Positions 2,551-51,081 of a DNA stretch of 64,000 nt are shown here, piece after piece. The stretch comes from Rhizophagus irregularis. Taxonomy: Eukaryota; Glomeromycota; Glomeromycetes; Glomerales; Glomeraceae. A program made the position numbers and the translations under genes. The stretch is from positions 2,480,001-2,544,000 of the forward strand of contig NC_089452.1 in the NCBI RefSeq assembly GCF_026210795.1. The letters run 5' to 3'. The notes beneath the pieces were generated by a model. That model saw only the letters and a program-made list of their open reading frames with translations. It did not search any database and was not told the origin of the DNA. Numbering within the stretch: position 1 is the first letter of the stretch; every line of letters starts with the position of its first letter.

Positions 2551-2655
2551 GTCGTCGGGCTGGATGTGGGAGGTGCTAGCACCACCCACCTCCGGGTCTA
2601 ACGACCCGTCGCAGTACCTATTTGGACCTTGCAGGTCCCAGGAATTCCCCATATA
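2551..2655. other. Terminal hairpin cluster of P1
   Basis: Three stems follow each other at the tip: GTGGG...CCCAC enclosing the palindrome GGTGCTAGCACC, then CGGGTC-TAAC-GACCCG, then GGACCT-TGC-AGGTCC. Between and after them lie GCAGTACCTA and GGAATTCCCCATATATA. P2, P3 and P4 keep the spacer sequences but have different, still paired stems. Confidence 0.75.
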
Positions 2656-2930
2656 TACTACCACCATGGCCACAGTGGCCATGGCTGGTCACACTACTTT
2701 CCAACTCCTTTTTTTTATCCATTTTTTCTTATACATAAAACTACTATGACCACTATGACCACTATGACCAGACTACTAAAAAGTGGATAAAAACGTGAAT
2801 AAAGCCAAAATTAGACAGAATATCCGGTCATAGTACTGGCCACAGTTCGAGAAACTTATGATAATACTATGGCCACCTTAGTTAGCCCCTCAGGCTCCAA
2901 AACCCAATTTAAGCTATGACCACCCTTTAT

Positions 2931-3090
2931 CTACATACCTGGGACACCGAACTATGCCACTGAACTATGACCACCGAACTATGACCGCCGAACTATGACC
3001 ACTGAACTATGACCGCCGAACTATGACCACCCTTTATCTACTTAGGAACACCGAACTATGACCGCCGAACTATGACCACCGAACTATGGC
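2931..3090. repeat. Minisatellite in P1 TIR (GAACTATGACC units)
   Basis: Irregular tandem copies of a 14- to 15-base unit, GAACTATGACCACC and GAACTATGACCGCC, fill the inner part of the TIR. Related units occur in P2 (about 32450-32710, other strand). P3 and P4 have a different minisatellite at the same place. Confidence 0.75.
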
Positions 3091-3172
3091 CACTTTTCCC
3101 GTCAGAAAAAATAAGTAATTGAACAATGGGTATTGAGAATAGAGCATACCCAGATAAGTTTAGAAGGCAGTA

Positions 3173-3493
3173 CTAATCCGTTTTCCTCTTTTTTGCCTCT
3201 TTAAGACATTTATCAATACACTGCTTGCAAGTGTCATCAGCATCTAAAATTTTCTGTCCGAGTTTTTTGCATTGCCGATTGTAAGCCGTCTGCTGTCTCT
3301 TAGCAGCGGTTTCTTTCTTTTTCTCCTTAGTCTTCTTCTTGATCACCCAGTCTATTCCAGTAAAAGTATTCTTATGCATACCACAAATTGTGCAGTCACC
3401 ATGCAGCCGGTAACGCCCATTTGTAGTCATATCTTGTATTTCACTAGCAGTCTCAGTTTCCTTCTTGCACTTTAGACAGTAAAATCGTGTCAT
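3173..3493 (-). CDS. Small basic zinc-ribbon protein (DUF5679-like), P1
   Basis: The 106-residue protein begins MTRFYCLKCKKE. Two CxxC pairs (C6/C9 and C34/C37) frame the conserved NGRYRLHGDC segment. This pattern, YCxKC...NGRxxLxGxCxxCG, is that of the DUF5679 zinc ribbon found in large DNA viruses and relatives, including small core-type proteins. The second half is very rich in Lys (KKKTKEKKKETAAK) and has a third cluster, CKQCIDKC. It could bind nucleic acid; the exact role is unknown. It diverges from the integrase gene with 44 bases between the ATGs. The downstream end abuts the TIR. Confidence 0.7.
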   Translation of the reverse strand: MTRFYCLKCKKETETASEIQDMTTNGRYRLHGDCTICGMHKNTFTGIDWVIKKKTKEKKKETAAKRQQTAYNRQCKKLGQKILDADDTCKQCIDKCLKEAKKRKTD

Positions 3494-3537
3494 CTTGAGA
3501 TTTGAAGTCTGAAATCTTTCCTTTAATTTGTCGTAAT

Positions 3538-4629
3538 ATGTCACAATTAGAGAATTACTACAAGTACTACAGTCTATCCAGAGTACCAGCACGAATTTTA
3601 AAAGGTGAAGAGCACTACAACCTATACAAAAAGCCCCTAAAGGAAAAGTCAACAGAACGCCCAAAGGTAATTGTATGGAAACCAAATGCAACACATCAGG
3701 CAGATCTTGCAGAGATGCCAGTTGACCCCAAAGGATTCCACTATTTCCTCGTAGTGGTGGAAGTTGCAGGAAAGAGAGTCGATGCAGAGCCCTTGAAGGA
3801 TAAAACTGCAAATAGAGTACTAAACGGGTTTGTTAAAATCTATAGAAGAAATCGTATCAAGCCTCCAACACACCGACTGGAAACCGACTCTGGATCAGAA
3901 TTCACTAATGACCAGGTACGTGATTTTTTCCTGAACAGCCTAGGGGTGATGATGAGGTTTGGAGAGCCGGGAAGACATAAACAGCAATCATATGCTGAAA
4001 GAGCTATCCAAGCTATCCAAGAACCCCTTCTTAAACGAATGGTAGCACAGGAGTTGAAAACCGGGGTGACATCCGTGGAATGGTCAGAAGATTTCCATAA
4101 TATAGTGAGTAAAGTAAATGAACTCTGGCAGAGAAATCCCCCAGACATTCCGACAGGGTCACCCAAAGTGTCAAAAAAGACAGACCTCCTCTCTGAAGGA
4201 ACACGTGTCAGAGTCAAGTTAGATGAACCTATTTCTGTACTTGGTAACAAACTTCATGGAAAATTCCGTACAGGAGACATAAGATGGAACCCAAACATTC
4301 GTGTAATCAAAAAAATGATACTCTCACCTGAACAGCCTCCTACATATCTCCTTAATGGACCACATGGTCGATTAGGTGTATCCAGATGTGCATATACCCG
4401 AAAGGAATTGCAAGTAGTTTCTATTAATGAAAAGCCTCCACCTGACTCTGTGATAAGAGGACAACCCAAAAGATTCGTACCTGAGCAGATACTTCGGCAT
4501 CGCATTAGAAAAGGTCAAGACCAGTATTTGGTTAAGTGGGAGAGATACCCAGACACTGAGGCTACTTGGGAACCTGCTGACCAGTTGAAGGAAGATGTCC
4601 CTGACTTAATTCACAAATTTTGGGAATAA
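3538..4629 (+). CDS. Integrase (retroviral/Polinton DDE type) with C-terminal chromodomain, P1
   Basis: The protein has 363 residues from ATG 3538 (MSQLENYYKY); an earlier in-frame TTG is not needed. The catalytic core shows HQADLAEM (D56), ETDSGSEF (D117) and YAERAIQ (E154), a DDE triad with D(36)E spacing close to the retroviral D(35)E. The C-terminus (about 312-363) is a chromodomain: ILRHRIRKG, YLVKWERYPDTEATWEP. It would cut and join the element ends. The chromodomain may direct insertion to histone-marked chromatin. The gene converges on the protease gene, 26 bases apart. A perfect 5-bp target duplication agrees with staggered DDE cutting. Confidence 0.9.
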   Translation: MSQLENYYKYYSLSRVPARILKGEEHYNLYKKPLKEKSTERPKVIVWKPNATHQADLAEMPVDPKGFHYFLVVVEVAGKRVDAEPLKDKTANRVLNGFVKIYRRNRIKPPTHRLETDSGSEFTNDQVRDFFLNSLGVMMRFGEPGRHKQQSYAERAIQAIQEPLLKRMVAQELKTGVTSVEWSEDFHNIVSKVNELWQRNPPDIPTGSPKVSKKTDLLSEGTRVRVKLDEPISVLGNKLHGKFRTGDIRWNPNIRVIKKMILSPEQPPTYLLNGPHGRLGVSRCAYTRKELQVVSINEKPPPDSVIRGQPKRFVPEQILRHRIRKGQDQYLVKWERYPDTEATWEPADQLKEDVPDLIHKFWE

Positions 4630-4655
4630 AAAAAAAATAGAAGAATTAAAGGGTC

Positions 4656-5396
4656 TTATTTTTTATCCCCTCGATTAGCATCAGGAACTATCGGGATAAA
4701 AACATTCTTCCCATCACAGGTAAAGGCTATATGTTCACGTGATTCATGGACATCATAATTGTAACGTTTCAGACACGTTCGGCTTAACCCAATTTCCCTA
4801 TGCTTGTAACCACTTAAGACTGCAAGGTCCTCAGTGATAGCATAATCAGGGGTAAGTTTGATTGTCACTCCCTTTACCATGCCGAATGTCCTACCTGTTC
4901 CTGAAGCACCAGATATGTTATATGTAATACTCTTGTCGATATCCAACCCTAATTCCTCAGCAGCTTCTCTTTGAATAAACGACGCATTAGCACAAATGTC
5001 TGCTAAACACTGAATTGCTATTCCATTAACCTCCCCATCCAGTGCTAAAAGATCTTTAGTATTCTCTAAACGAGCTATGTCAATATCCATAGGATCGTCT
5101 ACCCTGATATCCTCTTCTTGTTCCTCCTCAACTAGGTCCTCCGGAATCTCTGTGACTTTTCTAGCAGACAATAACTCCTCCTGAAGAATCTCACGGAGTA
5201 ATTTCCTAAAGTCTGCAGACCTTAACAGGCTTAATAAGTCATTCTTAGTAACAGCTTTTGCAGGTGTAGACTTACTACCAGTAACTTTCACAGGAATCTT
5301 AACAGGAGTTGCTTTGCCTTTCAATGGCACACTAGAAGAGCTAACTGCTGTCTTATTTGGGGACGACTTAAGAAGTTTTGAGATACTCGAACCTAC
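4656..5396 (-). CDS. Retropepsin-like aspartic protease domain, P1
   Basis: The open frame has no ATG near its start; it overlaps the end of gag at a run of nine A. The first third is a basic linker and a helix (SLLRSADFRKLLREILQEE). A retropepsin-like fold follows: a short lead strand (VNGIAIQCLAD), the flap-like GTGRTFGMVKG, and the second hydrophobic half LAVLSGYKHREIGLS. The active-site motif is a family variant of D-T/S-G-A (DTCANASF in copies P2 to P4). It would process Gag. In retroelements this domain follows Gag and is made by frameshift or read-through, which fits the gene order here. Confidence 0.72.
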   Translation of the reverse strand, partial: VGSSISKLLKSSPNKTAVSSSSVPLKGKATPVKIPVKVTGSKSTPAKAVTKNDLLSLLRSADFRKLLREILQEELLSARKVTEIPEDLVEEEQEEDIRVDDPMDIDIARLENTKDLLALDGEVNGIAIQCLADICANASFIQREAAEELGLDIDKSITYNISGASGTGRTFGMVKGVTIKLTPDYAITEDLAVLSGYKHREIGLSRTCLKRYNYDVHESREHIAFTCDGKNVFIPIVPDANRGDKK

Positions 5397-6823
5397 TTTT
5401 TTTTTGACCCAACACGAACCATATAGACATCACCATCTTTTTCTCTCAATTCTACCTTTTCACCAAAACTCGCAGTATCAATGTCCATAGCATCATCATT
5501 AAGATCGAGGTTTCTCATTGCTCGGGCCAAATCCAGATCATCACGTCTATCTTTAGCCTTCTGAAGTTGTTTTGTAAGTATTTTAGACGTCCCAGGTTTA
5601 TATCCCATAATAAGATCAATAGCATTTTGATGATCATCCAAAGTCCACTCAGGAGCATCAGGATCATCACCAACATCATGATCTACATAACCATCATCCC
5701 AATCAGGATCCTGAGGATCCTGAACAACACGTCTCTGTGGTTTTGGTCGAACAGGTTTAATCTGCTGTCTATAGACTGGTGGATTACGAACTGGCCGAGC
5801 CTGTAATTGTTTAAATTGCACCTGAAAATTCTTGGTAAGTTCTTCAGCCTGAGCCTTAAGCAACTCTTGTAATTGTTCTTGAGTAACCCCAGATGACTTT
5901 GATGTCAGTACGACAGGTTCCTGTTTTCCTAATGGAGGTTGAGTTACATCACTGTAATCTGCTTGAAGTCGTCGATTTCTATCTTGTAACCCCAAGCGCA
6001 TTTCAGCCCTTCTCCGTTCTAAATTTCTCAGATGTTTAACCAAGTCATCAGGATTAAGATTACTAAACCTTTCTGCTTCAAAAATATTATCAGCCGAAAG
6101 ACCTCTAAAGAACTGGTCGATAATAAGATCATCAGTTAGTTTTAGTAATTTTCCAGCCCTCTTTACAGTTCTATAAAATGCATCAACTGGCTCATTTTCC
6201 TGATAAAGACTGTTAAAACGGATACGTTTCTTTTCATCTAAAATAGTTGGGAATTGTGTTCTAAGCCAATAAAGCGCCTGGTTAGGTTTAATACCTGGAA
6301 AAACTATAGGCCGATTATTATTAGCAGCAACACCAGCATCTGCAGTAGCTGGAGCAGCTCTATCTGTCGGACGAGCACCAGCTCTTCCCCAAGCTTTATC
6401 TCCACCTATTAAATCATGGGTAGGAATAAATGCTGCTCTAATAGTTACTAATGCATTAGCTACATCTGTAGCATAAACATGTGCTTCAGACCCATTTACA
6501 TAGGTACCTGCATTCGGTCCTCCTGCACCTTCTGGTATCACTAATGCTACAAAAGCAGCTAAATTAGCTCCACCTCTTGAAGTGATACCAGAAAGTTCCC
6601 AATTTTTTCCTGTAATTTCTCGATCAAACCATTCAGCCGCTTCACCAGCCATGCAGCTTCTAAGTATACCCATAGCTCTTTTCCAAGACTCTGGTGGCCC
6701 TCCAGCAGCATATGGGTTAAGATTAATAGTATCAAGATAACCCATATAAAGCCTAACAAATGTATCAATATCATCAGTAGCTTTACCCTCAAAAATCGGC
6801 AATCCTATCGCAGTGGTAGCCAT
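5393..6823 (-). CDS. Gag-like capsid protein of Ty3/gypsy type, P1
   Basis: The protein has 476 residues. The N-terminal part reads like a retrotransposon Gag: a FEGKATDDIDTFVRLYMGYL start, then RAMGILRSCMAGEAAEWFD and NWEL, the usual LxG.A..W signature. Residues of about 180-285 resemble the capsid C-terminal domain: an IRFNSLYQENEPVDAFYR helix pair and DQFFRGLSADN. A Gln-rich helix and a Pro/Arg-rich stretch follow (about 315-370), then an acidic tail (DDGYVDHDVGDDPDAPEW). No zinc knuckle is seen. It starts 19 bases inside the end of the coiled-coil gene and ends in the A9 run shared with the protease frame. A Gag in a Polinton-like DNA element is unexpected. Confidence 0.78.
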   Translation of the reverse strand: MATTAIGLPIFEGKATDDIDTFVRLYMGYLDTINLNPYAAGGPPESWKRAMGILRSCMAGEAAEWFDREITGKNWELSGITSRGGANLAAFVALVIPEGAGGPNAGTYVNGSEAHVYATDVANALVTIRAAFIPTHDLIGGDKAWGRAGARPTDRAAPATADAGVAANNNRPIVFPGIKPNQALYWLRTQFPTILDEKKRIRFNSLYQENEPVDAFYRTVKRAGKLLKLTDDLIIDQFFRGLSADNIFEAERFSNLNPDDLVKHLRNLERRRAEMRLGLQDRNRRLQADYSDVTQPPLGKQEPVVLTSKSSGVTQEQLQELLKAQAEELTKNFQVQFKQLQARPVRNPPVYRQQIKPVRPKPQRRVVQDPQDPDWDDGYVDHDVGDDPDAPEWTLDDHQNAIDLIMGYKPGTSKILTKQLQKAKDRRDDLDLARAMRNLDLNDDAMDIDTASFGEKVELREKDGDVYMVRVGSKKK

Positions 6824-7602
6824 ATCGTCTCTAGTGGATTGTTTAATATAGGTGGAGGAGGGTTCAATTGTCTAATTCGAAACCATTGTACCTGAATTCT
6901 AAGAGCAGCTATCTGTTGGAAAAGTCTATTCCTAAGTCTCCCTAATGTCTGAATCCCAAAACGCACCCTATTATTAGCATGTGCTAGCTGTGCATTAACC
7001 TGTCCAAGTTGCACATTAGCCAATACAAGTTGTCCTCCAGTCCGAGTAGCCCTCAGCCGCCAATGATTTAGAAGGATATTACCACGATTCACAGCATTTT
7101 GAGCCTCATTACGATCCATTACTGCTTGAGTATAATCTGCTTGTAATACATTACGTTCATGTCGTGCCTGATTACGTTCACCTATAGCCCGTCGACGAAG
7201 CTCTACCATAGTATCATAATCTCTTTGCAGGTTATGGTTTTCTTCTATGAAATTATCATTGGCAGCACGTATAATAACTAATTGACGTTCTAAATTAGTA
7301 AACGTTTCATCAAATGCATTTATCTTACCTTGTGCAAAAACTAACAAATCTTTTGTAATACCAAGTTCTTCATGTTTTGCTTTACAGCGATACATTAATA
7401 TATTAATAATATGTTTGATTTGATTATTTGCCTCCTGTATCTCTGAATCAACAGTTAAACGACCCCTGGTAGTCAATAAATTTGCATGAGCCTTTAGTAT
7501 TCTAACTAATTCATCATCGTCTTCTTCATTAGCCAAGTGTGCAGGAGGCGGTCCAGTAGGTTCTGAAGGAGTATAAACTGGAATTGGTGTTGATGTCGAC
7601 AT
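6805..7602 (-). CDS. Coiled-coil protein upstream of Gag, P1
   Basis: The protein has 265 residues and starts MSTSTPIPVYTPSEPTGPPP. The Pro-rich N-terminus is followed by a long helical region (about 30-240) rich in Arg, Asn, Gln and Leu with coiled-coil character (for example RRRAIGERNQARHERN). The C-terminal 60 residues, from NNRVRFGIQTLGRLRNRLF to LNPPPP, are nearly the same in both core types. It overlaps gag by 19 bases, which suggests translational coupling or one assembly unit. I know no family. A scaffold or internal virion-like protein is a guess from position. Confidence 0.7.
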   Translation of the reverse strand: MSTSTPIPVYTPSEPTGPPPAHLANEEDDDELVRILKAHANLLTTRGRLTVDSEIQEANNQIKHIINILMYRCKAKHEELGITKDLLVFAQGKINAFDETFTNLERQLVIIRAANDNFIEENHNLQRDYDTMVELRRRAIGERNQARHERNVLQADYTQAVMDRNEAQNAVNRGNILLNHWRLRATRTGGQLVLANVQLGQVNAQLAHANNRVRFGIQTLGRLRNRLFQQIAALRIQVQWFRIRQLNPPPPILNNPLETIWLPLR

Positions 7603-7633
7603 AGTATTTAAACTAAGTTAGAATAAAATTCAA
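7603..7633. promoter_or_regulatory. 31-bp shared promoter region, coiled-coil gene and ATPase gene (P1)
   Basis: Only 31 bases lie between two divergent ATGs. They are AT-rich (AGTATTTAAACTAAG then TTAGAATAAAATTCAA). The same spacing and nearly the same bases occur in all four copies (27378-27408, 48384-48414, 58662-58689). So small a space leaves room only for very compact promoters or 5' ends. Confidence 0.5.
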
Positions 7634-8857
7634 ATGGATCTTTATGTATACAATTTGGATGAGTACACGACCGACTCAAGACAAGGCAATGAGTTTGCTC
7701 CATCATGGCCCTTTCGATTAGCCGTAGCAGGTAGCTCAGACTCAGGTAAGACAACTATGATTATTAACTTGTTAATGGGTGACAAGAAGGCAAAGGAGGA
7801 TGGTAATCGGTATGTACTATGTGATGCAGTACTTTTAGTTGGCAGATATCTTGACGAGCCAAAGTGGGCAGTTGTACATGATTTTTTCGAAGAGGAGAAG
7901 ATCCCATTCACTGCAGTAACCCATAGTGAGATTCCAGAGATTGACTCCTTCGACCCTACTCAAGCTACTGTGGTAATCTTTGAGGATCTGATGGATGCAC
8001 CTAAAAAAATCCAGGATCTCATCACTGGTTACTTTACACATGGACGACACAAAAATATTTCATGTATTTATGTAGCCCAAAGATTCTTTGCCATTCCTAA
8101 GGCTATTCGAGAAAATGTTAACTACATCTCACTGCATGGAGGTCATGGGAGCCTTACAGATACCAAGAGAATCATCCGCCAATATACAGAAGAATCAGAG
8201 TCATTAGCACCAGTAATTGATGATCTTACTCTGCAACGTGAATTTGTAGTGTTTGATCTTAGACGGTCCAAAAGTGATCCACTGTCCATTCGAGTAAGAT
8301 GGGATACTAGTCTCAGTTCGATCACAGAGCAATCTCAGTTCAATCCTAGTTCGATCTCAGTTCAATCTCAGTTTGATCCAAGTTTGAACCCAGTTCGATC
8401 TCAGTCTGAACCCAGTTCAATCACAGTTCAATCCAAGTTTAGTCCCTATGGTCAGAAAGCTGTATTTGAAGCAAAAAAAGGTGGACACTTGATTGAATTT
8501 GCTCGGGTATTTCCATCCCCTAAAGAGCGTCAACATTTACTTGTACCTGGTGTCTTAGCCAAGAATACAGATACCTGGATTAAATTTGTCTTTCGGGAAG
8601 CTTATGGACTTTCTGGTAAGACCCTAGGAGCTGACTTTCAGGATTTCTTAGCAAAAGTACAGGGTAGGACTGCAAAGACTGAAACTCTGAAAACTGAGAA
8701 TGTGAAGGAGTTATTCTCCCGATATGAAGCCCTGAAGTCTAGTCGCCCTCTGGATAATAAAAAAATAATAGAAGGTATTGAAGTCCTTCTACAGATCTTT
8801 TCTAAGAGCCACATGGACCGTCGAGCATTACAAGTAGGGATTAATAGTATCTTGTGA
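7634..8857 (+). CDS. A32-type genome-packaging ATPase (FtsK/HerA superfamily), P1
   Basis: The protein has 407 residues. It shows Walker A GSSDSGKT (33-40), Walker B VVIFEDLMD (113-121), and the IYVAQRFFAIPKAIREN segment (145-161) at the place where A32-type ATPases have their sensor Q and R residues. In Polintons and NCLDV-like viruses this enzyme pumps DNA into capsids. Its presence argues that the element forms or once formed particles. Residues of about 226-272 are a run of imperfect repeats (SQFNPSSISVQSQFDPS). The C-terminal 130 residues are helical. The 3' end overlaps the convergent next gene by 17 bases. Confidence 0.85.
   Translation: MDLYVYNLDEYTTDSRQGNEFAPSWPFRLAVAGSSDSGKTTMIINLLMGDKKAKEDGNRYVLCDAVLLVGRYLDEPKWAVVHDFFEEEKIPFTAVTHSEIPEIDSFDPTQATVVIFEDLMDAPKKIQDLITGYFTHGRHKNISCIYVAQRFFAIPKAIRENVNYISLHGGHGSLTDTKRIIRQYTEESESLAPVIDDLTLQREFVVFDLRRSKSDPLSIRVRWDTSLSSITEQSQFNPSSISVQSQFDPSLNPVRSQSEPSSITVQSKFSPYGQKAVFEAKKGGHLIEFARVFPSPKERQHLLVPGVLAKNTDTWIKFVFREAYGLSGKTLGADFQDFLAKVQGRTAKTETLKTENVKELFSRYEALKSSRPLDNKKIIEGIEVLLQIFSKSHMDRRALQVGINSIL
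8311..8442 (+). repeat. Coding minisatellite in the P1 ATPase tail
   Basis: Tandem imperfect units of about 15 bases (TCTCAGTTCAATCC, TCTCAGTTTGATCC, AACCCAGTTCGATC) code for SQFDPS/NPVRS-like repeats. Units are arranged differently in P2 (about 26570-26705), P3 (about 59370-59490) and P4 (about 49092-49223), always without frame loss in this stretch. Confidence 0.7.
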
Positions 8858-9401
8858 GAATATCAAGTAATTCGTTTGCAGAAGCTCTAAGAATCATAGC
8901 ACTTTTTTTACGGCCTTCAAAGTCAATCCTTAACATCTTAGCCTTCAACCCTATTGCTCCTAAGGCACGAGAAGCAAAGTTCTTAGTCATTGAATTACTT
9001 ATATGATTTACATAGTTCTTATAGAATGTATTGAAAGGCTCGTCGATACCATCTGGATATGTACCCCTTAGAAATTGATATAAGGCAATTTCTCCACTAT
9101 CACAACCTATGGCTATAAGCTGTTCGAGAAGCCACTTCCTAATATCTTCATATGGCTCTCCATCTATAATTTTCATATCCAGTCTTTGTGTAAACAATTG
9201 TGTAAAGTCCACATTACTTGCCCGACGAATGATCTGAACTAACTTATCCCTAGCAAGTCCCAAGGCTTGTAGAGGGTCATTCTCATCACTAATCTTCTTT
9301 ATAATCTGTCTGTATAATACACTGGATAATCCTCTATGTGCTGTTTTTGGAGTGATTACTCCACAGTTTTGGTACTGGTTTATTACGATTGATGTTGACA
9401 T
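8841..9401 (-). CDS. Conserved protein of unknown function (186 aa), P1
   Basis: The protein begins MSTSIVINQYQNCGVI and is predicted mostly helical, with a long basic stretch near the end (IDFEGRKKSAMILRA). It is kept in all four copies with high similarity. It lies between the packaging ATPase, with which its 3' end overlaps by 17 bases, and the zinc-ribbon gene at 9447. I do not recognise it. Its place in the structural half of the element hints at a virion or assembly role, but nothing in the sequence proves it. Confidence 0.65.
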   Translation of the reverse strand: MSTSIVINQYQNCGVITPKTAHRGLSSVLYRQIIKKISDENDPLQALGLARDKLVQIIRRASNVDFTQLFTQRLDMKIIDGEPYEDIRKWLLEQLIAIGCDSGEIALYQFLRGTYPDGIDEPFNTFYKNYVNHISNSMTKNFASRALGAIGLKAKMLRIDFEGRKKSAMILRASANELLDILTRYY

Positions 9402-9446
9402 GGCTATCTTTCTTTATGTAAAAAAGAATTATTCAAAATTAAGTAA

Positions 9447-10028
9447 CTATTCGGAGCAGTCCTTGCACAACTTGTCCGTTAAGTCACTTGGGCTTACAGG
9501 CATGAGACATTCCCTACACAACTCAATATTAAGCTCTGCAAGTCTCGGGGTATGGTCCTCCAAAGTTCGTGGACGACCGGAAGGACCGGAGGAAGGTGTC
9601 CCGTTAGTCGTATCCTGCTGTAAGATAAAATCATCATATTCATCTTGGTCAGCCTGAATAGCGGCCCTGATTTGTTGTATATCATTGAAAGTTAACCGCT
9701 GCCCATCAAGATTTTCCTCATTATAGCGTGTTTCATTGATGATTTCCTCTATAAGCGCCTCTTCTTCATAATGGACAAGGTAGTAATCCTCAACTACCTC
9801 ATAGTCACTCTCAATCAGTCTATGATATGTTCTAGTACCACGTCGAACATAACGTCCTGTATCTGTATTTAAATATACAGGTTGCTCTTCAGGTGGAGGT
9901 GCAGTTTGTCTACGGACAAGCCTTCCATCAATATAATCATGGGATTCCATAACTATTCGATTAAAGGTATCTCCACCGATAATAATTGGACGTCCAGTTA
10001 TAGGGTTAGCTATATAAGGGTAAGACAT
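9447..10028 (-). CDS. Acidic protein with C-terminal zinc ribbon, unknown function (193 aa), P1
   Basis: It begins MSYPYIANPITGRPI. The middle is acidic (EEEALIEEIINET), and the end carries CRECLMPV and LCKDC, a CxxC...CxxC zinc-ribbon pair about 13 residues apart. A Pro/Ser linker (TPSSGPSGRPRT) separates the two. The motif AAATTGAAGA stands at 10067-10076, 39 bases upstream of the ATG. The N-terminus (NPITGRPIIIGGDTFN) resembles short modules seen in proteins of large DNA viruses, but I cannot name a family. Conserved in all copies. Confidence 0.65.
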   Translation of the reverse strand: MSYPYIANPITGRPIIIGGDTFNRIVMESHDYIDGRLVRRQTAPPPEEQPVYLNTDTGRYVRRGTRTYHRLIESDYEVVEDYYLVHYEEEALIEEIINETRYNEENLDGQRLTFNDIQQIRAAIQADQDEYDDFILQQDTTNGTPSSGPSGRPRTLEDHTPRLAELNIELCRECLMPVSPSDLTDKLCKDCSE

Positions 10029-10066
10029 GTCTTTTTTCTGTATGTGTCTACATACCTAATAGTTTT

Positions 10067-10076
10067 CTTCAATTTA
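10067..10076 (-). promoter_or_regulatory. AATTGAAGA motif before the zinc-ribbon gene (P1)
   Basis: On the minus strand it reads AAATTGAAGA, 39 bases upstream of ATG 10028. The same motif stands in P2 at 24806-24815, P3 at 61259-61268 and P4 at 50847-50856. Confidence 0.55.
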
Positions 10077-10087
10077 CAATAACCAAG

Positions 10088-10245
10088 TGACATGGTCATC
10101 AGTCCTTGTCGAAAAAAATGCAAGGATACCTGATGATAAAGTTACATGGTCATCAATCCTTGTCGAAAAAATGCAAGGATACCTGATGATAAGGTTACAT
10201 GGTCATCAGTCCTTGTCGAGAAATATGAGGATACCCGATAAATAA
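10088..10245. repeat. Array of three hairpin units (about 57 bp each), P1
   Basis: Each unit contains TCATCAGTCCTTG, a loop TCGAAAAAAATG, and CAAGGATACCTGATGA, which form an imperfect stem, followed by TAAGGTTACATGG. P1 has three units, P4 four (50866-51077) and P3 two (61278-61382). The array separates the structural/packaging half from the replication half. It could be an origin, a terminator or a regulatory hub. The LINE insertion in P2 is inside it. Confidence 0.75.
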
Positions 10246-10246
10246 G

Positions 10247-10663
10247 CTACTCCTGTTGAGTCCATTCGTTCCACTCCCAGTTCAGTCCCCAAGGGTCGCC
10301 TCCCCATCTTTGTTCACTTAATGCATGCTCTATGGTTTCCCTCTCTTGGGGGTCCACGACCATCCCATTCCTAAGCATTTTCTCCATAATATAAAGCTGA
10401 TCCTCGGTGAGGCGGTCTATCCATCTTTTATAGAAGTCGTTTACATCTTCAAATGATATCCAGTCAATATTCCCTTTTTCAAACGGCTTTCCAAGAGCTT
10501 GGACATGCCCAATTGTAGTAGCGTAATTTTTCCATCTCTTATATGCTTCTTGACGAACCTCCTGCCACCACACACTATCTACTTTACTCGCTGCAATAAG
10601 GTCAGTATCTGGGATCTTTGCAACAATGCGTTCGACTATTTCTACTGGTAATCGGTCCAACAT
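10247..10663 (-). CDS. F-box protein, P1
   Basis: The protein has 138 residues. The N-terminal 45 are a clear F-box: LPVEIVERIVAKIPDTDLI, then SKVDSVWWQEVRQEAYKRW. The rest is helical with many Trp and acidic residues (WGGDPWGLNWEWNEW) and could be a target-binding tail. F-box proteins join substrates to Skp1-cullin ubiquitin ligases. A mobile element could use one to remove a host defence factor, as some viruses do; that is inference. Motif TAATTGAAGA at 10691-10700 precedes it. Confidence 0.72.
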   Translation of the reverse strand: MLDRLPVEIVERIVAKIPDTDLIAASKVDSVWWQEVRQEAYKRWKNYATTIGHVQALGKPFEKGNIDWISFEDVNDFYKRWIDRLTEDQLYIMEKMLRNGMVVDPQERETIEHALSEQRWGGDPWGLNWEWNEWTQQE

Positions 10664-10690
10664 GATGTTATGTTACTTATACTATAGCCA

Positions 10691-10700
10691 TCTTCAATTA
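10691..10700 (-). promoter_or_regulatory. AATTGAAGA motif before the F-box gene (P1)
   Basis: The minus strand reads TAATTGAAGATGG, then CTATAGTATAAGTAACATAA, 27 bases upstream of ATG 10663. The CTATAxxTAAGTAACAT part also stands next to the motif in P3 at 39397-39417. Confidence 0.6.
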
Positions 10701-10772
10701 CTGTATGCCCATTACAAATGGATAAAAAATATAAACTAAATTCGTACAGGATCGTGGGACCACAGGAGCCGC

Positions 10773-11243
10773 TTATGCAAGAAGTTCTGTTAAGGTTTTC
10801 TCAGCCTCATTCATAGTGACAGCTCGCTTTGGGGAACCTGTTAATGAGTCCTTAGTTACATTATAATACAACTCGAAGAGGGCCTCAAGTTTGTCTAAAA
10901 GAGCTTGTTTATTCTTGTATGATTCACGAATCTTTGCTATCTTAGCAGTATATGCTGCATTATCTGGGAAGAGTTTTCTGGCCACGAACTTCACATATGA
11001 TACAGGAGACTTTGCTGTCTGGATTCTCTTGATATACTTCACATGATCCTGGACAAGGTAGCTGGTTTTGCTAAACCCAGATACTAATGCGACTATTATA
11101 GTGTCTTTCAATGCACGGATAATCTTGAGGACAGTTTCATCAGAGACAATGGTGAACTGATTATGTGATGCATCATAAATAACTTTATCACTAATGCTGT
11201 CAGTGCTGTTAATAATGCTTGCTAATTCGGTATATGTTGACAT
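10773..11243 (-). CDS. Conserved helical protein of unknown function (156 aa), P1
   Basis: It begins MSTYTELASIINSTDS. It is mostly alpha-helical, basic in the middle (DHVKYIKRIQTAKSP) and ends KTLTELLA. No cysteine cluster or catalytic motif is seen. It is kept intact in all three copies that cover this region (P1, P3, P4), directly upstream of DNA polymerase B in type I elements. A role in replication, for example as partner or terminal protein, is possible from position only. Confidence 0.62.
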   Translation of the reverse strand: MSTYTELASIINSTDSISDKVIYDASHNQFTIVSDETVLKIIRALKDTIIVALVSGFSKTSYLVQDHVKYIKRIQTAKSPVSYVKFVARKLFPDNAAYTAKIAKIRESYKNKQALLDKLEALFELYYNVTKDSLTGSPKRAVTMNEAEKTLTELLA

Positions 11244-11282
11244 GATTCCTTATACTTTTTTGTACTTTGTAATAAATAGGAA

Positions 11283-11292
11283 TCTTCAAATT
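11283..11292 (-). promoter_or_regulatory. AATTGAAGA-like motif before the 156-aa gene (P1)
   Basis: The minus strand reads AATTTGAAGA, 39 bases upstream of ATG 11243; P4 has it at 52117-52126. Confidence 0.45.
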
Positions 11293-11356
11293 GACTTTAC
11301 ATTCAAGCAAGAAAAAATATATATACCTACTGTAAATCCAACCGCATTCTTGGCAA

Positions 11357-13240
11357 TCATGTCCAGATAACCTTGTTTGCATTTTTCACATGGCAGTATC
11401 CTGCGGTTTCAAACTTGAGAGCTTTCAATGCTTTGGATGCATTTTCTGGACAAGTGATAAGTGTAGGACTACTCGGCTGTTCCTCTAGAATAAATCCATC
11501 TGTATGGATGCGTCGTACTTTATCCTTATATGGTTCTAATAACTCTGAAGTCATCTTCCGTCCATGTGCTAATAAGAATGGAGCAATCCTAGGATACTCA
11601 CCCTTGAAGGGACTACCTGGGTTTGTGAACTGGAATCGCCACTGGTCAGATCCTACTGGTACGATGGAGTCAAGTGTGTGGCCTTCTGGAAACTTGAATG
11701 GATCTGTTTGATCTGTGGTGAGTGTCTTGTAATTGCGTTTTCTCTGGCAGAGTGCTCCCCATAGTGTATTGAGAACTCTCTTTGCAACACGACCGGCCAC
11801 GCCACCCTGGTTCTTTATATTGAAGAGAAAGTGGACATACTCACCAAATATTACAGTCCCAGGAATTCTTGCTTCTCTGTCATATATCAAGGCATTTGGC
11901 TTTCCATCCTGGATTAACTGTATATCGAGACCAAGTTTCTTTGCTCGTTGTAAGTCAATGAATGTATAGACTCCCCTCTTATTCTGTCGGAAGAGAATGT
12001 CATTACCACTTACCTTGCCCCTTTGGGGCGCTCTCTGGGAGCTGGCACGAAATAATCCATACAAGGCATAACCTCTATGGTCTACAAAGTCTTTGAGTAT
12101 TTGAAACTTACCTTGTCGGATTGGAAAGTTTGCATTTGATTGCTGAATACTTGGATACAAACTTGTCACGTCGTATTGCCTTCCATAGCCCTTCCATTCA
12201 TTGTCTGCCCAGATAAGACCTCCCATCATTGCATCACTTATCCACTCTGCTTCGACTGGGTCAAGAGGATCATTGGCTGGAACCCCTACACTAAACCGTT
12301 CAAAAAGCCAGAGTGCAGTTCTCTTGTACGACCAGTTGTGGTAAGATAAGTCGATTCCTAGACCGAACTTCTTTGTAGCCTGTAGGAAGGAATCCCGCTC
12401 TTCATGGATCCTCTGGTATGTTTCCTCAAGTGTTTCATATATTCCAGTTTTACGATTCTTCTCAATAGGGATGAAGGAGTAACTATCAGAGTTCTTACCT
12501 TTCTGAAACTGTCCAACTGTAAGAGACTTAACTGTCTTACCATTGTATATTGTTACTACATTATTAACCCCATCTTCACGATAAACAAAGGGAGACTTTT
12601 GTTTTCTATCTAATTTACTAGGGTGAAGTCTTCCAGGATTCAGTGCAAGAGAGTAGTGGCCTTCAGACAGGATGAGGGTTGCACGTCTGTCAGATTTGCT
12701 CTTGGAAATTCGAGTGGAATCCCCTACAATATTAAGTGCAAGGCTTCCTGCAAGTTGTTCAACCTTATCCATATATGAGACTGGAACTGGAGCATCACGA
12801 TTGAGACCTAATGCCTTTTTGATATATTCAGGTTTTTTTATAGTCTTGGGTATTTTAGAGAATATACCATAGATATGCTTCAGGCATTCATACAGGCAAT
12901 CATTTAGCTCCCCATTGCATCCCCCTGCAACCGGTGGAGCATCTCTCACATAAATTATGAATCGTTCAAAGTAATCAGGATCTGCATCATCTGGTAGTTG
13001 TGCTTCATCATAGTGGTCTAAGAGTGAGAAGAGGCTGGCTGGTTGGTTTCCTGATGTCCATCCACCGGGTTTCCAGTTTTCATAGGGGAGCAGAATCTGA
13101 AATTTATGTGTCGGATACCGGGATTGGAGTTGCTGTCCAAGTCTGGCAATAGCTCCTCTAGAAAATCTTGCGCCTGAATACTGTAGTTCTTTGATATCTG
13201 GTCTTGTAGGTAAAGCACGTGCAATTTTTGAATAGGCCAT
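11357..13240 (-). CDS. Family B DNA polymerase, protein-primed type, P1
   Basis: The protein has 627 residues. Polymerase motif A is DVTSLYPS (357-364), motif B KRVLNTLWG (487-495), motif C IHTDGFI (578-584), in the arrangement of protein-primed polymerases of Polintons and related viruses. The N-terminal 300 residues hold a Cys/His segment, NDCLYECL (113-120) and GHYSLAL (194-200), which recalls a papain-like or OTU-like fold. Classic 3'-5' exonuclease motifs are not evident to me, and the protein is shorter than typical Polinton polymerases (about 1000 or more). It would copy the element from its inverted ends. Motif CAATTGAATAC precedes the ATG at 13259-13269. Confidence 0.87.
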   Translation of the reverse strand: MAYSKIARALPTRPDIKELQYSGARFSRGAIARLGQQLQSRYPTHKFQILLPYENWKPGGWTSGNQPASLFSLLDHYDEAQLPDDADPDYFERFIIYVRDAPPVAGGCNGELNDCLYECLKHIYGIFSKIPKTIKKPEYIKKALGLNRDAPVPVSYMDKVEQLAGSLALNIVGDSTRISKSKSDRRATLILSEGHYSLALNPGRLHPSKLDRKQKSPFVYREDGVNNVVTIYNGKTVKSLTVGQFQKGKNSDSYSFIPIEKNRKTGIYETLEETYQRIHEERDSFLQATKKFGLGIDLSYHNWSYKRTALWLFERFSVGVPANDPLDPVEAEWISDAMMGGLIWADNEWKGYGRQYDVTSLYPSIQQSNANFPIRQGKFQILKDFVDHRGYALYGLFRASSQRAPQRGKVSGNDILFRQNKRGVYTFIDLQRAKKLGLDIQLIQDGKPNALIYDREARIPGTVIFGEYVHFLFNIKNQGGVAGRVAKRVLNTLWGALCQRKRNYKTLTTDQTDPFKFPEGHTLDSIVPVGSDQWRFQFTNPGSPFKGEYPRIAPFLLAHGRKMTSELLEPYKDKVRRIHTDGFILEEQPSSPTLITCPENASKALKALKFETAGYCHVKNANKVIWT

Positions 13241-13258
13241 TTGATATAACTATGAATT

Positions 13259-13269
13259 GTATTCAATTG
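13259..13269 (-). promoter_or_regulatory. AATTGAA motif before DNA polymerase B (P1)
   Basis: The minus strand reads CAATTGAATAC, about 19 bases upstream of the ATG. P4 keeps it at 54091-54100. Confidence 0.45.
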
Positions 13270-13323
13270 TAATATAGGTTTTTTATATAAAAAATATAAG
13301 ATAACTAAGAGGCGCTTATCTTA

Positions 13324-15753
13324 TTAAAAGGAGTCAATCATATCACAGGCCTCATCAATATCCAGCTCGTCTACAAATCCATTAGCGGCCTCCCACTGGC
13401 GTTCCATCTCGGTCTTTGGACGTTCTTCGGGGATCTCTCGCGCTTTACCCTTATTCATCTTCATAGTTTCATAACCGGAGGTGGTAGGGATAATCTCGGC
13501 ATCATGATCCTCCTTATATGCTCTTATTAAATCTGCAAGCTCTTTACGGCTAGGTGTTTTAGATAAGTATCCATTATATTCGATCCAGTCCTTGAAGCGG
13601 TCTACTACTTCCCTAAGGTAGTACTGGTACTCGTCCTCAATACGTGTTGTGGGACATTCCTCTACTTCAAACGCGAGTATTTCCCAGTCATACTCGTCTG
13701 ACGCGTTTTGGTACTTAGCCCATAAATCCTTACCTGTATTGTAGAGATCATTGAAGACCTGGTCCTTTGAATTCTTGACCCATGGCTTATAATCCCATCG
13801 GTGCCTTTCATGCCAAGCCCAGTGTGCTCGAGTACCTTCCTTTGGTTCAGGGTCCCAGTCAACTTCTAGTTCTGTGTCGGGTTCTGGGATAGGTTGCTCT
13901 TCAGGAGCCGGTTCTGGGTCAGGCTTAGTGACAGATGCAGAAGATTCTGCGAGAGACTCGGGTTGTTGTTCAGGAGCTGGGTTCACAGTTGTAAAATCTG
14001 AGTCAGATAGCAAGTCATCTAAAACGTCATAGTCATCATCAGCTTTAAATGCAGGTTCCTCAGCAGGCGGATCATTTTCTTGATCAGGTTCCTCATCAGA
14101 TAGATAACAGTCCGAGAAGCTATCTATAGGTTCATCAGTATCTGACTCTATGGGAGCTGGAGATTCCTCAGGAATAGGATCCTCTTTGATGACAGGTGCG
14201 GGTTTTACCTTCAAGCAATCGGGCTTAAGTGGTACTGGTGGTGGAGTCTTTTTGGAAACTGGTTTCTCTTCAGTAGGCTTCTTCTCGACAGGAGCGGGTT
14301 TTTCTTCAGCAGGTTTCTCAACAACTGGCTCCACTTCCTCTTGATTTACCTGTGCTTCCTGTATGTCTTGTGTCTCCTGGATTACTCTACTAAAATTCTT
14401 CGCAATTTTTGCTTTATCTAGTATGTAATAGTTTATTCTAGCACCTGAACGTCTTGGGCGAGTTTTAGGAATGAATTGCTTAATCTCCATACCAAACTTA
14501 TTATCACTAAGTGTTTTGTTTTCACCCTTCTCACTGCACCAATTCTGGTAAGTACTATAGAAATTTGTACAAGGGATTTCAAGTGTATCACAATTGTCGG
14601 GCCACATCATTTCAAGGTAATATTGTATGAAACGCTGGGGATTTGGAATACTTGCTTCAATTAGCTCCTGTTTCATTTGAGTATCAGGAATAGATCGGGG
14701 ATTGAAGCTAGTTAAGTCTCGGCTAAGTAGATAGGACATGAAGGAACTGGCTGTATCTGGATTTTCTAATACTTTTACTAGAGAACTGAAGTATTCTCGA
14801 TTACCCTTATATTTGGCTGAGACGTTAAGAGCTACAAATCTTTCATCTCCCATTTCTATGCGAATTGGCATAGCATGATTACTCAGGATCATGTAGCCAG
14901 CAAAGTCATCAATAACCTTCACATCTATTCCTTTTTCCTCGATAGAGATGTAAGGCTCAGTGATTAAACTCTTAAGTCGGTTATTTGCTCCATGCCATTC
15001 CTTGCCTGTCATATCACATTCATTGAGGATAATGAGTTTTTTGGCACGAACAGCTGCATTGAACCTTCCCATTACATCTTCAAGACGGGTAGTGGAGAGA
15101 AAGTTTTCACGACCAAGAATATGTTCTCCGATAAAATCGGTTAAGATATTCTTACCACATCTGGGGGGACTGCGCATAATAATTGCTGTACCGGGTTTTT
15201 TGTCGGGATTTTGAACCAGAAATGCGAGCCAGTTGAGGATGTATGTAGTTAACTGCTTATCCTCTGCACACCATACCTCATGAATATGTTGAATGATTGG
15301 ATTAACTAGGTTCGATTTGATGTGCTCAGCGGGTTGAGCCCTGAAACCTAGAAAGAGATTGAAGAATTCAGGATTATACTTTGGTGCATTTGGGGGATAA
15401 GGCATGAAATTAACATCTGTATAACAGATCTTTGTAACTGAGGCTTGGATAAGAAGGTCCTTTAACTTGGTGGATGTGGTCATACCATCATCTTCTCCTG
15501 TATCTGACCGAATACTTACCTTGTGCTTAGTAGAAATTCCCTTGAGATCTGCAGCAAACTCAAAGTATATGCTTCCATTATAAGCCTTCTTTTTTCTGAT
15601 CCACATGCCGGACTTCGTGGTGATGAAAGCCACAGAAGCTGAGATTGCTAAATTGACGCTTTCTTTTGTGTGTGTACCTATACACTTTTTAAGAAGGTCA
15701 TCGTAGAAGAAACGGTTGTTGGGGTTAAAGATTGCTGGAACTTGAGCGGCCAT
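13324..15753 (-). CDS. SF3 helicase (D5-like) with long acidic C-terminal extension, P1
   Basis: From ATG 15753 (MAAQVPAIFN) the protein has 809 residues; a TTG five codons earlier is less likely. SF3 motifs: Walker A RSPPRCGKN (194-202), Walker B KLIILNECD (239-247), motif C YMILSN (287-292), then GDERFVAL with the arginine. The region upstream (20-180) is a D5-N type domain. Residues of about 480-640 form a Pro/Glu/Lys-rich, low-complexity acidic linker (KPAEEKPAPVEKKPTEEKPV). The C-terminal 170 residues are Trp/Asp/Glu-rich and helical. The helicase would unwind DNA for polymerase B. In P4 the helicase core at the same place is a different lineage, although the flanks match. Confidence 0.85.
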   Translation of the reverse strand: MAAQVPAIFNPNNRFFYDDLLKKCIGTHTKESVNLAISASVAFITTKSGMWIRKKKAYNGSIYFEFAADLKGISTKHKVSIRSDTGEDDGMTTSTKLKDLLIQASVTKICYTDVNFMPYPPNAPKYNPEFFNLFLGFRAQPAEHIKSNLVNPIIQHIHEVWCAEDKQLTTYILNWLAFLVQNPDKKPGTAIIMRSPPRCGKNILTDFIGEHILGRENFLSTTRLEDVMGRFNAAVRAKKLIILNECDMTGKEWHGANNRLKSLITEPYISIEEKGIDVKVIDDFAGYMILSNHAMPIRIEMGDERFVALNVSAKYKGNREYFSSLVKVLENPDTASSFMSYLLSRDLTSFNPRSIPDTQMKQELIEASIPNPQRFIQYYLEMMWPDNCDTLEIPCTNFYSTYQNWCSEKGENKTLSDNKFGMEIKQFIPKTRPRRSGARINYYILDKAKIAKNFSRVIQETQDIQEAQVNQEEVEPVVEKPAEEKPAPVEKKPTEEKPVSKKTPPPVPLKPDCLKVKPAPVIKEDPIPEESPAPIESDTDEPIDSFSDCYLSDEEPDQENDPPAEEPAFKADDDYDVLDDLLSDSDFTTVNPAPEQQPESLAESSASVTKPDPEPAPEEQPIPEPDTELEVDWDPEPKEGTRAHWAWHERHRWDYKPWVKNSKDQVFNDLYNTGKDLWAKYQNASDEYDWEILAFEVEECPTTRIEDEYQYYLREVVDRFKDWIEYNGYLSKTPSRKELADLIRAYKEDHDAEIIPTTSGYETMKMNKGKAREIPEERPKTEMERQWEAANGFVDELDIDEACDMIDSF

Positions 15754-15973
15754 TTTTTGTTCTATCAAATCGAGTACTAATTTATAGTTACCTAATCTTC
15801 AATTGCCGAATATTTTTTCCAAAGATCTGCACTCCTACCAGGTTACCCTCCTGTAGTCCTGTGGTTCTGCGGTTCTGCGGTCCTCCGGTTATATCTGGTT
15901 ATCTTCTAGGGGTAAAAAAAAAACTATAAACCACGAACCTTTACGACTGCTCTAAATCTTCCCTTCCCCTTTT
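15754..15973. other. Non-coding spacer between helicase and F-box-like gene, P1
   Basis: These 220 bases hold the promoter motif of the helicase, a C/T-rich stretch (GTTACCCTCCTGTAGTCC, with TCTGCGG repeated) and an A9 run. P4 has the same spacer at 56709-56927. No ORF or RNA gene is seen. Confidence 0.6.
15797..15806 (-). promoter_or_regulatory. AATTGAAGA motif before the helicase gene (P1)
   Basis: The minus strand reads CGGCAATTGAAGATTAGG, then TAACTATAA, 43 bases upstream of ATG 15753. The same block precedes a different gene, the F-box-like one, in P3 (39387) and P2 (32339). Confidence 0.6.
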
Positions 15974-16342
15974 TCAAACTACATATATCTGAAATCCAAA
16001 CCGCTCAAGAGCTCCTTTTACTATAGTTAGCTCTTTTCTAGTGTCCATTAACTCTTTACAAGCCTTTTGATACGCCTTCCATTCAAGTTCACGGAGGTCA
16101 CGATTTCTATTATCCTCCTCCTCCGATCGACCAAGAGCATCATTTGCTTTTTCCTTCTTTTCTACTGCCCTGTCGTATGCCTCCTCGGCTTTTTTATGCC
16201 GCTTCCAGAGTACTCGTTCAGCTTCGGCTTTCCAGATTGGGCTGACTTCTAGAAGATGTGGCCCAAAATTGCTATTTGGAATGCGTTCCAGGATATGGCC
16301 TACAAGTTCAGGGATTACTGATACTGCGTGCGGGGTATACAT
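15974..16342 (-). CDS. Second F-box-like protein with coiled coil (122 aa), P1
   Basis: It starts MYTPHAVSVIPELVGHILE. Residues 9-50 fit an F-box-like pattern (ELVGHILERIPNSNF, LEVSPIWKAEAERVLWKR). A charged coiled coil follows (AEEAYDRAVEKKEKANDALG) and continues to the end. It is the outermost gene at the helicase end; its promoter lies in the TIR, with TAATTGAACA at 16380-16389. It may hand host proteins to ubiquitin ligase. The F-box match is weaker than in the 138-aa protein. Confidence 0.58.
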   Translation of the reverse strand: MYTPHAVSVIPELVGHILERIPNSNFGPHLLEVSPIWKAEAERVLWKRHKKAEEAYDRAVEKKEKANDALGRSEEEDNRNRDLRELEWKAYQKACKELMDTRKELTIVKGALERFGFQIYVV

Positions 16343-16371
16343 GTTATCTGTCCTTATAGATTACTTATGGT

Positions 16372-16954
16372 ATACCCATTGTTCAATTACTTATTTTTTC
16401 TGACGGGAAAAGTGGCCATAGTTCGGTGGTCATAGTTCGGCGGTCATAGTTCGGTGTTCCTAAGTAGATAAAGGGTGGTCATAGTTCGGCGGTCATAGTT
16501 CAGTGGTCATAGTTCGGCGGTCATAGTTCGGTGGTCATAGTTCAGTGGCATAGTTCGGTGTCCCAGGTATGTAGATAAAGGGTGGTCATAGCTTAAATTG
16601 GGTTTTGGAGCCTGAGGGGCTAACTAAGGTGGCCATAGTATTATCATAAGTTTCTCGAACTGTGGCCAGTACTATGACCGGATATTCTGTCTAATTTTGG
16701 CTTTATTCACGTTTTTATCCACTTTTTAGTAGTCTGGTCATAGTGGTCATAGTGGTCATAGTAGTTTTATGTATAAGAAAAAATGGATAAAAAAAAGGAG
16801 TTGGAAAGTAGTGTGACCAGCCATGGCCACTGTGGCCATGGTGGTAGTATATATGGGGGATTCCTGGGACCTGCAAGGTCCAAATAGGTACTGCGACGGG
16901 TCGTTAGACCCGGAGGTGGGTGGTGCTAGCACCTCCCACATCCAGCCCGACGAC
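16372..16954. repeat. Right terminal inverted repeat of P1 (type A)
   Basis: This is the inverse copy of 2551-3133. Its inner end lies 30 bases upstream of the F-box-like gene at 15974-16342, so the promoter of that gene lies largely in the TIR. Confidence 0.88.
16380..16389 (-). promoter_or_regulatory. AATTGAA motif in the TIR before the F-box-like gene (P1)
   Basis: The minus strand reads AAGTAATTGAACAATGGG, 37 bases upstream of ATG 16342. Since it is in the TIR, the same sequence lies also near the other end (about 3115-3133), in front of no gene on that strand. Confidence 0.45.
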
Positions 16955-24499: not shown

Positions 24500-24770
24500 T
24501 AATGGGCGCATTGTTCGTTGGTTTGTTTACATAGTTGCTTCTTCTTAGGTTGGAATATATCTAGGCGGGGGATCAGGATAGTTTTAGTGTTATGCGATTT
24601 TTTCTCTTTTGAATTATTTTATAGCTTTATTACTATTTTGGAGACTATATAGTTTTGTTTTTAGTTAATTTTATTTTTCTTTTTTTGTACTTTGAAAATT
24701 TTATTTTATTTTTGTAAGTTCGTTAAATAAATTTAATAAAGATAAAGGCTACTATGCCATATTTGCCTTT
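24500..24770 (+). other. 3' untranslated region of LINE L2
   Basis: This is T-rich non-coding sequence matching 1906-2173 of L1. It ends GATAAAGGCTACTATGCC and then ATATTTGCCTTT, with P2 sequence starting at 24771. The conserved tail is presumably what the reverse transcriptase recognises. Confidence 0.8.
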
Positions 24771-51077: not shown

Positions 51078-51081
51078 TAAG

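Follow-up and report, generated by a model that had tools for sequence, protein, structure and literature searches.

A Polinton element of Rhizophagus irregularis carries a predicted Ty3/gypsy-type Gag and protease and lacks a detectable jelly-roll capsid gene

The 64,000-nucleotide stretch of the Rhizophagus irregularis genome analysed here (C24:2480001-2544000; hereafter the window, in whose numbering positions are given unless a contig is named) contains P1, a recently active Maverick/Polinton element in which a predicted retrotransposon-type Gag and an aspartic protease lie among genes for DNA replication, packaging and integration. A first-pass annotation had assigned to P1 a protein-primed type DNA polymerase B, a superfamily 3 (SF3) helicase, an A32-type packaging ATPase and a chromodomain integrase, and all four were borne out by a Pfam scan that took in 13 open reading frames (ORFs) of P1 and in which HMMER filters drop most matches above 0.1. 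The features of P1 are listed below with family E-values and, where given, ratios of nonsynonymous to synonymous substitution (dN/dS) from a single pair, P1 and one copy of a second lineage (lineage 2), for the 11 genes with a counterpart.

2551-16954: P1, complete element, 14,404 bp
2551-3133: left terminal inverted repeat (TIR), beginning GTCGTCGG; target duplication AATTC directly before it
3173-3811, minus strand: ORF of uncertain status with a DUF5679 domain (1.3e-16); it overlaps the integrase ORF in the 5' part of the latter
3502-4629, plus strand: DDE (rve) integrase with C-terminal chromodomain (rve 5.4e-9, Chromo 1.7e-17); dN/dS 0.07
4656-5396, minus strand: retropepsin-like aspartic protease, in the -1 frame relative to Gag (Asp_protease_2 4.7e-7); dN/dS 0.15
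5397-5405, minus strand: run of nine A on the coding strand, directly before the G of the last Gag codon and the stop; proposed Gag-Pro slippage site
5393-6823, minus strand: predicted Ty3/gypsy-type Gag, 476 amino acids (aa) (single-sequence Retrotrans_gag 0.03, below cut-off); dN/dS 0.39
6805-7602, minus strand: probable coiled-coil protein, 265 aa, overlapping the Gag start by 19 nt; dN/dS 0.59
7634-8857, plus strand: A32-type packaging ATPase, divergent from Gag (Pox_A32 2.9e-9); dN/dS 0.09 over 289 codons
8841-9401, minus strand: 186-aa protein, no family; dN/dS 0.10
9447-10028, minus strand: 193-aa protein with a weak 2-cysteine adaptor domain (E 8e-4, below cut-off); dN/dS 0.19
10247-10663, minus strand: 138-aa F-box-like protein (E 0.0086, below cut-off); dN/dS 0.36
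10773-11243, minus strand: 156-aa protein, no family; dN/dS 0.16
11357-13240, minus strand: DNA polymerase family B, organellar/viral (protein-primed) type (DNA_pol_B_2 7.5e-8); dN/dS 0.06
13324-15768, minus strand: D5-like/DUF5906 SF3-type helicase (DUF5906 4e-19, plus Pox_D5); dN/dS 0.34
15974-16342, minus strand: 122-aa ORF, no confident family
16372-16954: right TIR; AATTC directly after it

P1 has the family-B polymerase, the rve integrase and the TIRs by which Mavericks/Polintons are defined in the accessible text of PMC12220804. Its TIR arms, 583 nt each, are 100% identical, and so are the 460-nt arms of P4, a second complete element of the P1 lineage that is flanked by the target duplication TCGCC and is 94-98% identical to P1 in aligned blocks; both elements must therefore have inserted recently. 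In a lineage-2 copy on contig C13 the TIR alignment spans 488 nt at 99.4% (palindromic duplication included) and the duplication is ATTAA, such that the target duplication was 5 bp in all three elements examined. When the flanks of P1 were joined without the second AATTC, the resulting 235 nt gave an uninterrupted match to other copies of a long interspersed nuclear element (LINE), the best being 96% over 1-235 at C24:2474246; at least 40 such matches represent the empty site of P1. The other elements of the window are:

24768-32206: P2, lineage 2, in inverted orientation; extent taken from repeats; gag at 28095-29591, pro at 29561-30310
39521-43455: P3, lineage 2, integrase-pro-gag part; resumes at 57777-64000 and runs past the window edge
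43456-57776: P4, 14,321 bp, sitting inside the gag of P3

The first-pass annotation had described the same arrangement in four copies. What stood of this is the order of the integrase-Pro-Gag-ATPase block, which is common to P1-P4 once later cuts are allowed for. What did not is intactness: only P1 and P4 are complete, the polymerase and helicase frames of P4 are broken, P2 is interrupted between ATPase and polymerase by LINEs, and the P3 gag is cut by the P4 insertion.

The virion genes that might be looked for in a Polinton were not detected, again as the first-pass annotation had held. No capsid family and, by sequence comparison only, no adenovirus/Ulp1-type cysteine protease was matched at E<=1 among the 13 ORFs. 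Every unspliced P1 ORF longer than 265 aa is assigned by Pfam save the 476-aa protein (Retrotrans_gag, E 0.03 on its own); none longer than 265 aa remained unassigned, and a hidden unspliced double-jelly-roll capsid was rejected on this ground. A Capsid_NCLDV profile run over the genome found no match, but its control was silent too, so that this result carries little weight. No penton family was matched in the P1 ORFs, while the ORFs of 156-193 aa carry no confident family. These observations bear on the possibility that another product of the element (the 265-aa coiled-coil protein, the 186- or 193-aa protein, or a spliced product) is the true capsid and has escaped recognition, with Gag as an accessory. 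The 265-, 186- and 193-aa ORFs are conserved and without a confident family, as this explanation would have it, but a double jelly roll would need more length than any of them has as an unspliced ORF, and all ORFs above 265 aa are assigned; we consider it improbable. Retrotransposon remnants were looked for as well. Reverse transcriptase families gave no match at E<=1 among the 13 ORFs, and P1 has no pair of long terminal repeats (LTRs): those of its direct repeats that reach 40 nt form short arrays, located in the TIRs, in the ATPase gene and in one spacer. An intact LTR element was thus rejected, there being neither reverse transcriptase nor LTR, and the earlier description of a Gag and a retropepsin-like protease in Gag-Pro order without either of these held up in both the profile and the repeat analyses.

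The identity of the 476-aa protein is central to the argument. Profile comparisons identify it as a Ty3/gypsy-type Gag with an insert in the capsid region; a call that is weak with a single sequence becomes firm with deeper profiles. Searches for homologs at E<=0.001 gave 193 and 227 proteins, of which the best 120 were listed; at E<=1 there were 81. Among the matches listed, the named Gag relatives come from R. irregularis, including strain DAOM 181602/197198, plus one from R. diaphanus, and many others are environmental. Of 20 relatives, Pfam matched 13 to Retrotrans_gag with an E-value of 1 or less, the best being 0.0055. A profile of 20 sequences searched against PDB gave the PEG10 capsid (7lga) first, at E 0.014, and one of 33 sequences (lowest identity to P1 Gag 32%) gave PEG10 at 7.1e-5 with the next match at 0.02. 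We also compared these profiles by hhalign with Gags of LTR elements from the same genome, 25 of them once two of 27 extracts in the wrong frame (L024 and L032) were dropped. The 20-sequence profile matched this set with 93.1% probability and a score of 55.4 (200 column shuffles reached at most 24.6, reversed alignments 15.6 and 16.8), and the 33-sequence profile with 95.1% and 62.3 (the maximum was 23.6 over 100 shuffles, and the reversed alignment scored 14.8). The N-terminal 80 residues match at 96.6% probability and residues 175-290 at 32.7%, the latter with a score of 30.2 against a shuffle maximum of 21.7; the two capsid parts match in order, with an insert of some 85-110 aa between them, and residues 80-165 match nothing. 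By family, the LTR profile scores were highest for B (the L022 type, 9 sequences; 57.7), followed by A (41.9), D (36.0), F (34.1), E (29.8) and C (28.5), an order that is not a phylogeny and partly follows family size.

That the protein is not a Gag at all, the match having arisen by chance or convergence, would accord with the single-sequence E-value under the cut-off, the unmatched residues 80-165 and the borderline first PDB search. Against this, none of 200 and none of 100 shuffles came near the observed scores, the matches of the N and C parts follow the same order, PEG10 is reached at 7.1e-5 and a retropepsin-like ORF follows Gag; we hold such an explanation to be highly improbable, and the earlier caveat that the protein might be unrelated to Gag capsid is contradicted by the PDB profile search together with the shuffled and reversed controls. 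The Polinton Gags differ from the LTR Gags in one respect: a CCHC zinc knuckle was present in 0 of 153 relatives versus 17 of 20 LTR loci checked (out of 40; the three negatives are short extracts that may be cut). Absence of the knuckle would be expected if RNA packaging had been given up. As to the spread of the family, environmental relatives (P0019, P0021, P0062, P0071, P0095, P0106, P0109 and P0148-P0170) are mostly 440-505 aa long and 33-62% identical to P0148, and none of the own-genome places listed falls below 49% identity to P1. Given these identities, the Gag family is probably wider than one fungus, with other hosts likely. No relative of Gag or of the ATPase was confirmed in viral contigs.

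Over the 146.7-Mb genome (32 contigs), 79 of 91 listed Gag places have an ATPase no more than 2.5 kb upstream of Gag and on the other strand, where about 0.09 would be expected by chance, and an ATPase or polymerase lies nearby at 84 of the 91; conversely, gag stands beside 82 of 107 listed ATPase places and 57 of 72 full-length ATPases (all Gag, ATPase and polymerase place counts being lower bounds). All 11 genes compared between the lineages have dN/dS below 1, from 0.06 for the polymerase to 0.59 for the coiled-coil protein; a value of 0.25 for the 122-aa ORF was left out of this comparison, that ORF having matched an opposite-strand ORF near the other end. The gag genes of the two lineages are 55% identical, and gag (0.39) and pro (0.15) are under purifying selection between them. 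One could still imagine a decaying retrotransposon fragment, brought by a chance insertion into a single ancestral copy. The Gag is of retrotransposon type and many copies have stops, but 39 of 91 listed Gag rows are free of stops within the match, there is no LTR or reverse transcriptase, and the block has been kept under selection in two lineages this far apart. We regard a chance insertion as excluded in practice by the linkage and the purifying selection, in line with the first-pass view that the arrangement is not accidental and contrary to its own caveat that gag-pro might be a separate retroelement present in some copies. The composition of the element and the linkage of its genes are, in our judgement, firm.

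At the junction between gag and pro, the P1 gag ends in GGGTCAAAAAAAAAGTAG; shortly ahead of this end the protease frame opens, at -1 to gag. In P1 and 60 of 90 non-P1 Gag places, picked among the better-preserved ones, a run of 7-11 A was found at 61 of 61 junctions (A9 in 46, A8 in 12, A7 in two and A11 in one). The frame relation was scored in 64 rows (the 60 fetched places plus P1-P4, with P2, P3 and P4 counted in both forms), of which 26 were uninformative, the Gag anchor also being present in Pro. In the 38 readable rows Pro lies at -1 in 26 and at +1 in 12; the 23 fetched -1 rows all have A9, and the +1 rows comprise ten A8, one A11 and one A9 (L074). The two A7 copies (L053 and L068) carry gag and pro in one open frame of 737 codons. 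No other coding-strand run of eight or more A occurs within the 12 P1 ORFs counted, and lysine codons are used near-equally in P1 (AAA 131, AAG 138; 11 ORFs). At least two lysines stand among the last five Gag residues in 28 of 33 family members (at the protein level for the environmental ones), which would fit a conserved A run. Because an A run is present at every junction examined and in view of the frame relation, Gag-Pro is likely made by slippage, whether transcriptional or ribosomal. Eight public gene models fuse the coiled-coil protein, Gag and Pro by joining the frames via predicted introns whose junctions differ; we read these as the way in which gene-prediction programs tried to get across the frame change and not as proof of splicing, which may nevertheless occur.

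Given this evidence, a plausible scenario is that the jelly-roll virion module of P1 was replaced by a Ty3/gypsy Gag-Pro module, that is, that a capsid was replaced and DNA is packaged in the new one; we put the probability of this at roughly 55%. The scenario would run as follows: (i) the host would transcribe the element; (ii) the protein-primed type polymerase B and the SF3-type helicase would copy linear element DNA; (iii) Gag would build a shell, into which a minor share of Gag-Pro, from slippage on the A run that ends gag, would carry the protease that matures it; (iv) the A32-type ATPase would bring element DNA to or into this shell and (v) the chromodomain integrase would insert the DNA with 5-bp duplications. 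Gene content, linkage, TIRs, duplications, the empty site, the recent insertion, Gag homology, purifying selection, the frame relation and the A run belong to the observed part of this scheme. Shell formation, DNA cargo, a partnership with the ATPase, slippage and protease activity are what we infer. That the ATPase has been kept and is constrained, though no major capsid protein (MCP) was found, suggests that something is still packaged (compare the accessible part of PMC4028283).

Several points weigh against this scenario. As to the virion, A32-type ATPases are known from jelly-roll viruses, and to our knowledge no Gag shell is filled by a motor. A small penton-like protein may exist among the 156-, 186- and 193-aa ORFs, or be encoded by a spliced gene. 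As to Gag, the P1 protein alone scores under the Pfam cut-off, unrelated Pfam families reach comparable E-values in single relatives (for example 0.0025 and 0.0033), and Atg17 (0.02) nearly tied PEG10 in the 20-sequence PDB search, a tie that is gone with 33 sequences. As to linkage, neither ATPase nor polymerase lies near 7 of the 91 listed Gag places and 15 of the 72 full-length ATPases have no listed gag within 2.5 kb; P3, its gag cut by P4, is one of these 15, so that some were cut by later insertions. As to expression of the protease, the sequence downstream of the A run showed no RNA structure in either lineage (z 0.32 and 0.33), which argues against a classical stimulated frameshift. 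The protease itself has a clan-AA aspartic protease domain and its best PDB chain is 7efy (a UBA domain-containing protein, presumably Ddi-type; E 0.012). The catalytic motif of retropepsins is D-S/T-G; DTC and not DTG was found in all 94 proteins (of 153) with the flanking pattern and, by locus, DTC in 12 of 13 with DIC in P1. Lacking the canonical motif, the protease is of uncertain activity.

Some of these points would be accommodated if P1 were a Polinton living purely as a transposon, with Gag-Pro forming Arc/PEG10-like assemblies or acting on the host or on competing retroelements, the DNA not enclosed and the ATPase having another role. The altered active site and the fact that the particle is deduced from genes would agree with this, as would PEG10 being the nearest solved relative; moreover, dN/dS is higher for the coiled-coil protein and Gag than for the other nine genes, as might be seen in proteins that interact with host or competitor. 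It accounts poorly for a packaging-type ATPase that is among the most constrained genes and sits beside gag in most listed places, and for a gag-pro order kept with its A run in both lineages. We find this explanation doubtful, and favor capsid replacement.

What is new here is the poly-A gag/pro junction, the Gag without a zinc knuckle and the DTC protease motif. Going further, we suggest tentatively, at somewhat less than even odds, that these elements embody a new capsid solution, with a double-stranded DNA element in a knuckle-less Gag shell served by an A32-type ATPase and a Gag-Pro made by poly-A slippage. This may represent a novel route by which a DNA element forms a particle, and a categorically new mechanism is possible. 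It would also fill a named gap: in the accessible text of PMC7805220 the Polinton of Glomus intraradices (= R. irregularis) is named among those without a detectable MCP, still not found, and MCP-less Polintons are read as having lost the capsid for life as transposons; Entamoeba invadens is another host whose capsid-free Polinton is named there. If Gag is the capsid, then whole capsid modules can pass from retroelements to DNA elements or back, a Gag shell is compatible with a DNA-packaging ATPase, and other 'capsid-free' elements should be scanned again with Gag profiles. Since these elements are young and numerous in a culturable symbiotic fungus, the question is directly testable. Mavericks are among the recent expansions in R. 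irregularis and among its transposable element orders, according to the accessible parts of PMC8647823 and PMC11075540, respectively, neither of which gives the gene content there. Our literature search, with most subscription journals and preprints outside its reach, found no description of a Gag or an aspartic protease in a Polinton; none stands in the accessible parts of PMC4409740, PMC10120064 and PMC10328495 either.

The surroundings of the elements provided additional observations. The segment 16955-24767 (as well as about 1-2550) is LINE sequence, with ORF2 at 18878-23698, and lineage-2 Polintons seem to have received this LINE repeatedly at a single site, located between their ATPase and polymerase genes. 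Among 41 ATPase-polymerase pairs, with some truncated rows of either gene left aside, the gap is 3.41-3.52 kb in 11. In units of 8.19 kb, the excess over this gap is 0.99-1.00 in five further pairs and 2.0 in one, and not a whole number in the others. For 25 of the 40 LINE copies listed, a listed Polinton gene is found no more than 25 kb away. The polymerase and ATPase of P2 are 83,144 bp apart (C24:2421167-2507132), which, minus the normal gap and P1, is 7.97 such units; P2 may thus be interrupted by some eight LINEs in tandem, P1 sitting in one of them; the listed LINE copies, a lower bound, include just two in the interval. Between P2 and P3, at 33829-38663, lie a 49-bp tandem array and, nested in a second pair of inverted arms, a perfect palindrome whose 886-nt arms are separated by 231 nt. 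Within the elements, an 11-nt tandem repeat occupies the 3' half of the ATPase ORF in three copies (8278-8466, 49059-49258 and 59312-59522), 53-bp tandem repeats lie in the spacer before the F-box-like gene (10059-10249 and 50895-51084) and similar sequence borders the P2/LINE junction at 24768-24800. The F-box-like protein (10247-10663) perhaps acts on host ubiquitination. Family matches to coiled coils are weak and come from the lineage-2 homologue of the 265-aa protein. The polymerase, used as a PDB query, gave no match; a conserved-looking Cys/His stretch in its first 250 residues presumably resembles the N-terminus of animal Polinton polymerases.

With regard to known systems, P1 qualifies as a Polinton when taken as a transposon, and does not fit the jelly-roll Polintons as a virion type. 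Like Mavericks/Polintons it has a family-B polymerase, a chromodomain rve integrase, long TIRs and an A32-type ATPase; unlike jelly-roll Polintons it has a predicted Gag and a retropepsin-like protease, and neither a double-jelly-roll MCP nor a penton or Ulp1-type protease was detected in it. Like Ty3/gypsy LTR retrotransposons (Metaviridae), in which a shifted-frame protease after Gag and a chromodomain integrase also occur, it has a Gag with capsid domains; unlike them it has no reverse transcriptase, LTR or Gag zinc knuckle, and it has a DNA polymerase and a packaging ATPase. With domesticated Gags of the PEG10/Arc type it shares homology to the C-terminal capsid domain of PEG10 (7lga); those are host genes, whereas this Gag gene belongs to a mobile DNA element. 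A precedent for module swapping between virus realms comes from the insect parvovirids with a Polinton polymerase, which we take to be the Bidnaviridae. These elements make 5-bp duplications, unlike typical Polintons, for which 6 bp is usual in the accessible text of PMC12220804, and P1 keeps its ATPase, unlike the nine MCP-less Polintons that, in the accessible part of PMC4028283, are also without ATPase and protease. In the parvovirid case it was the Polinton polymerase that was passed on (accessible part of PMC11071308); here, in contrast, a Polinton would have taken up the Gag-Pro of a retroelement.

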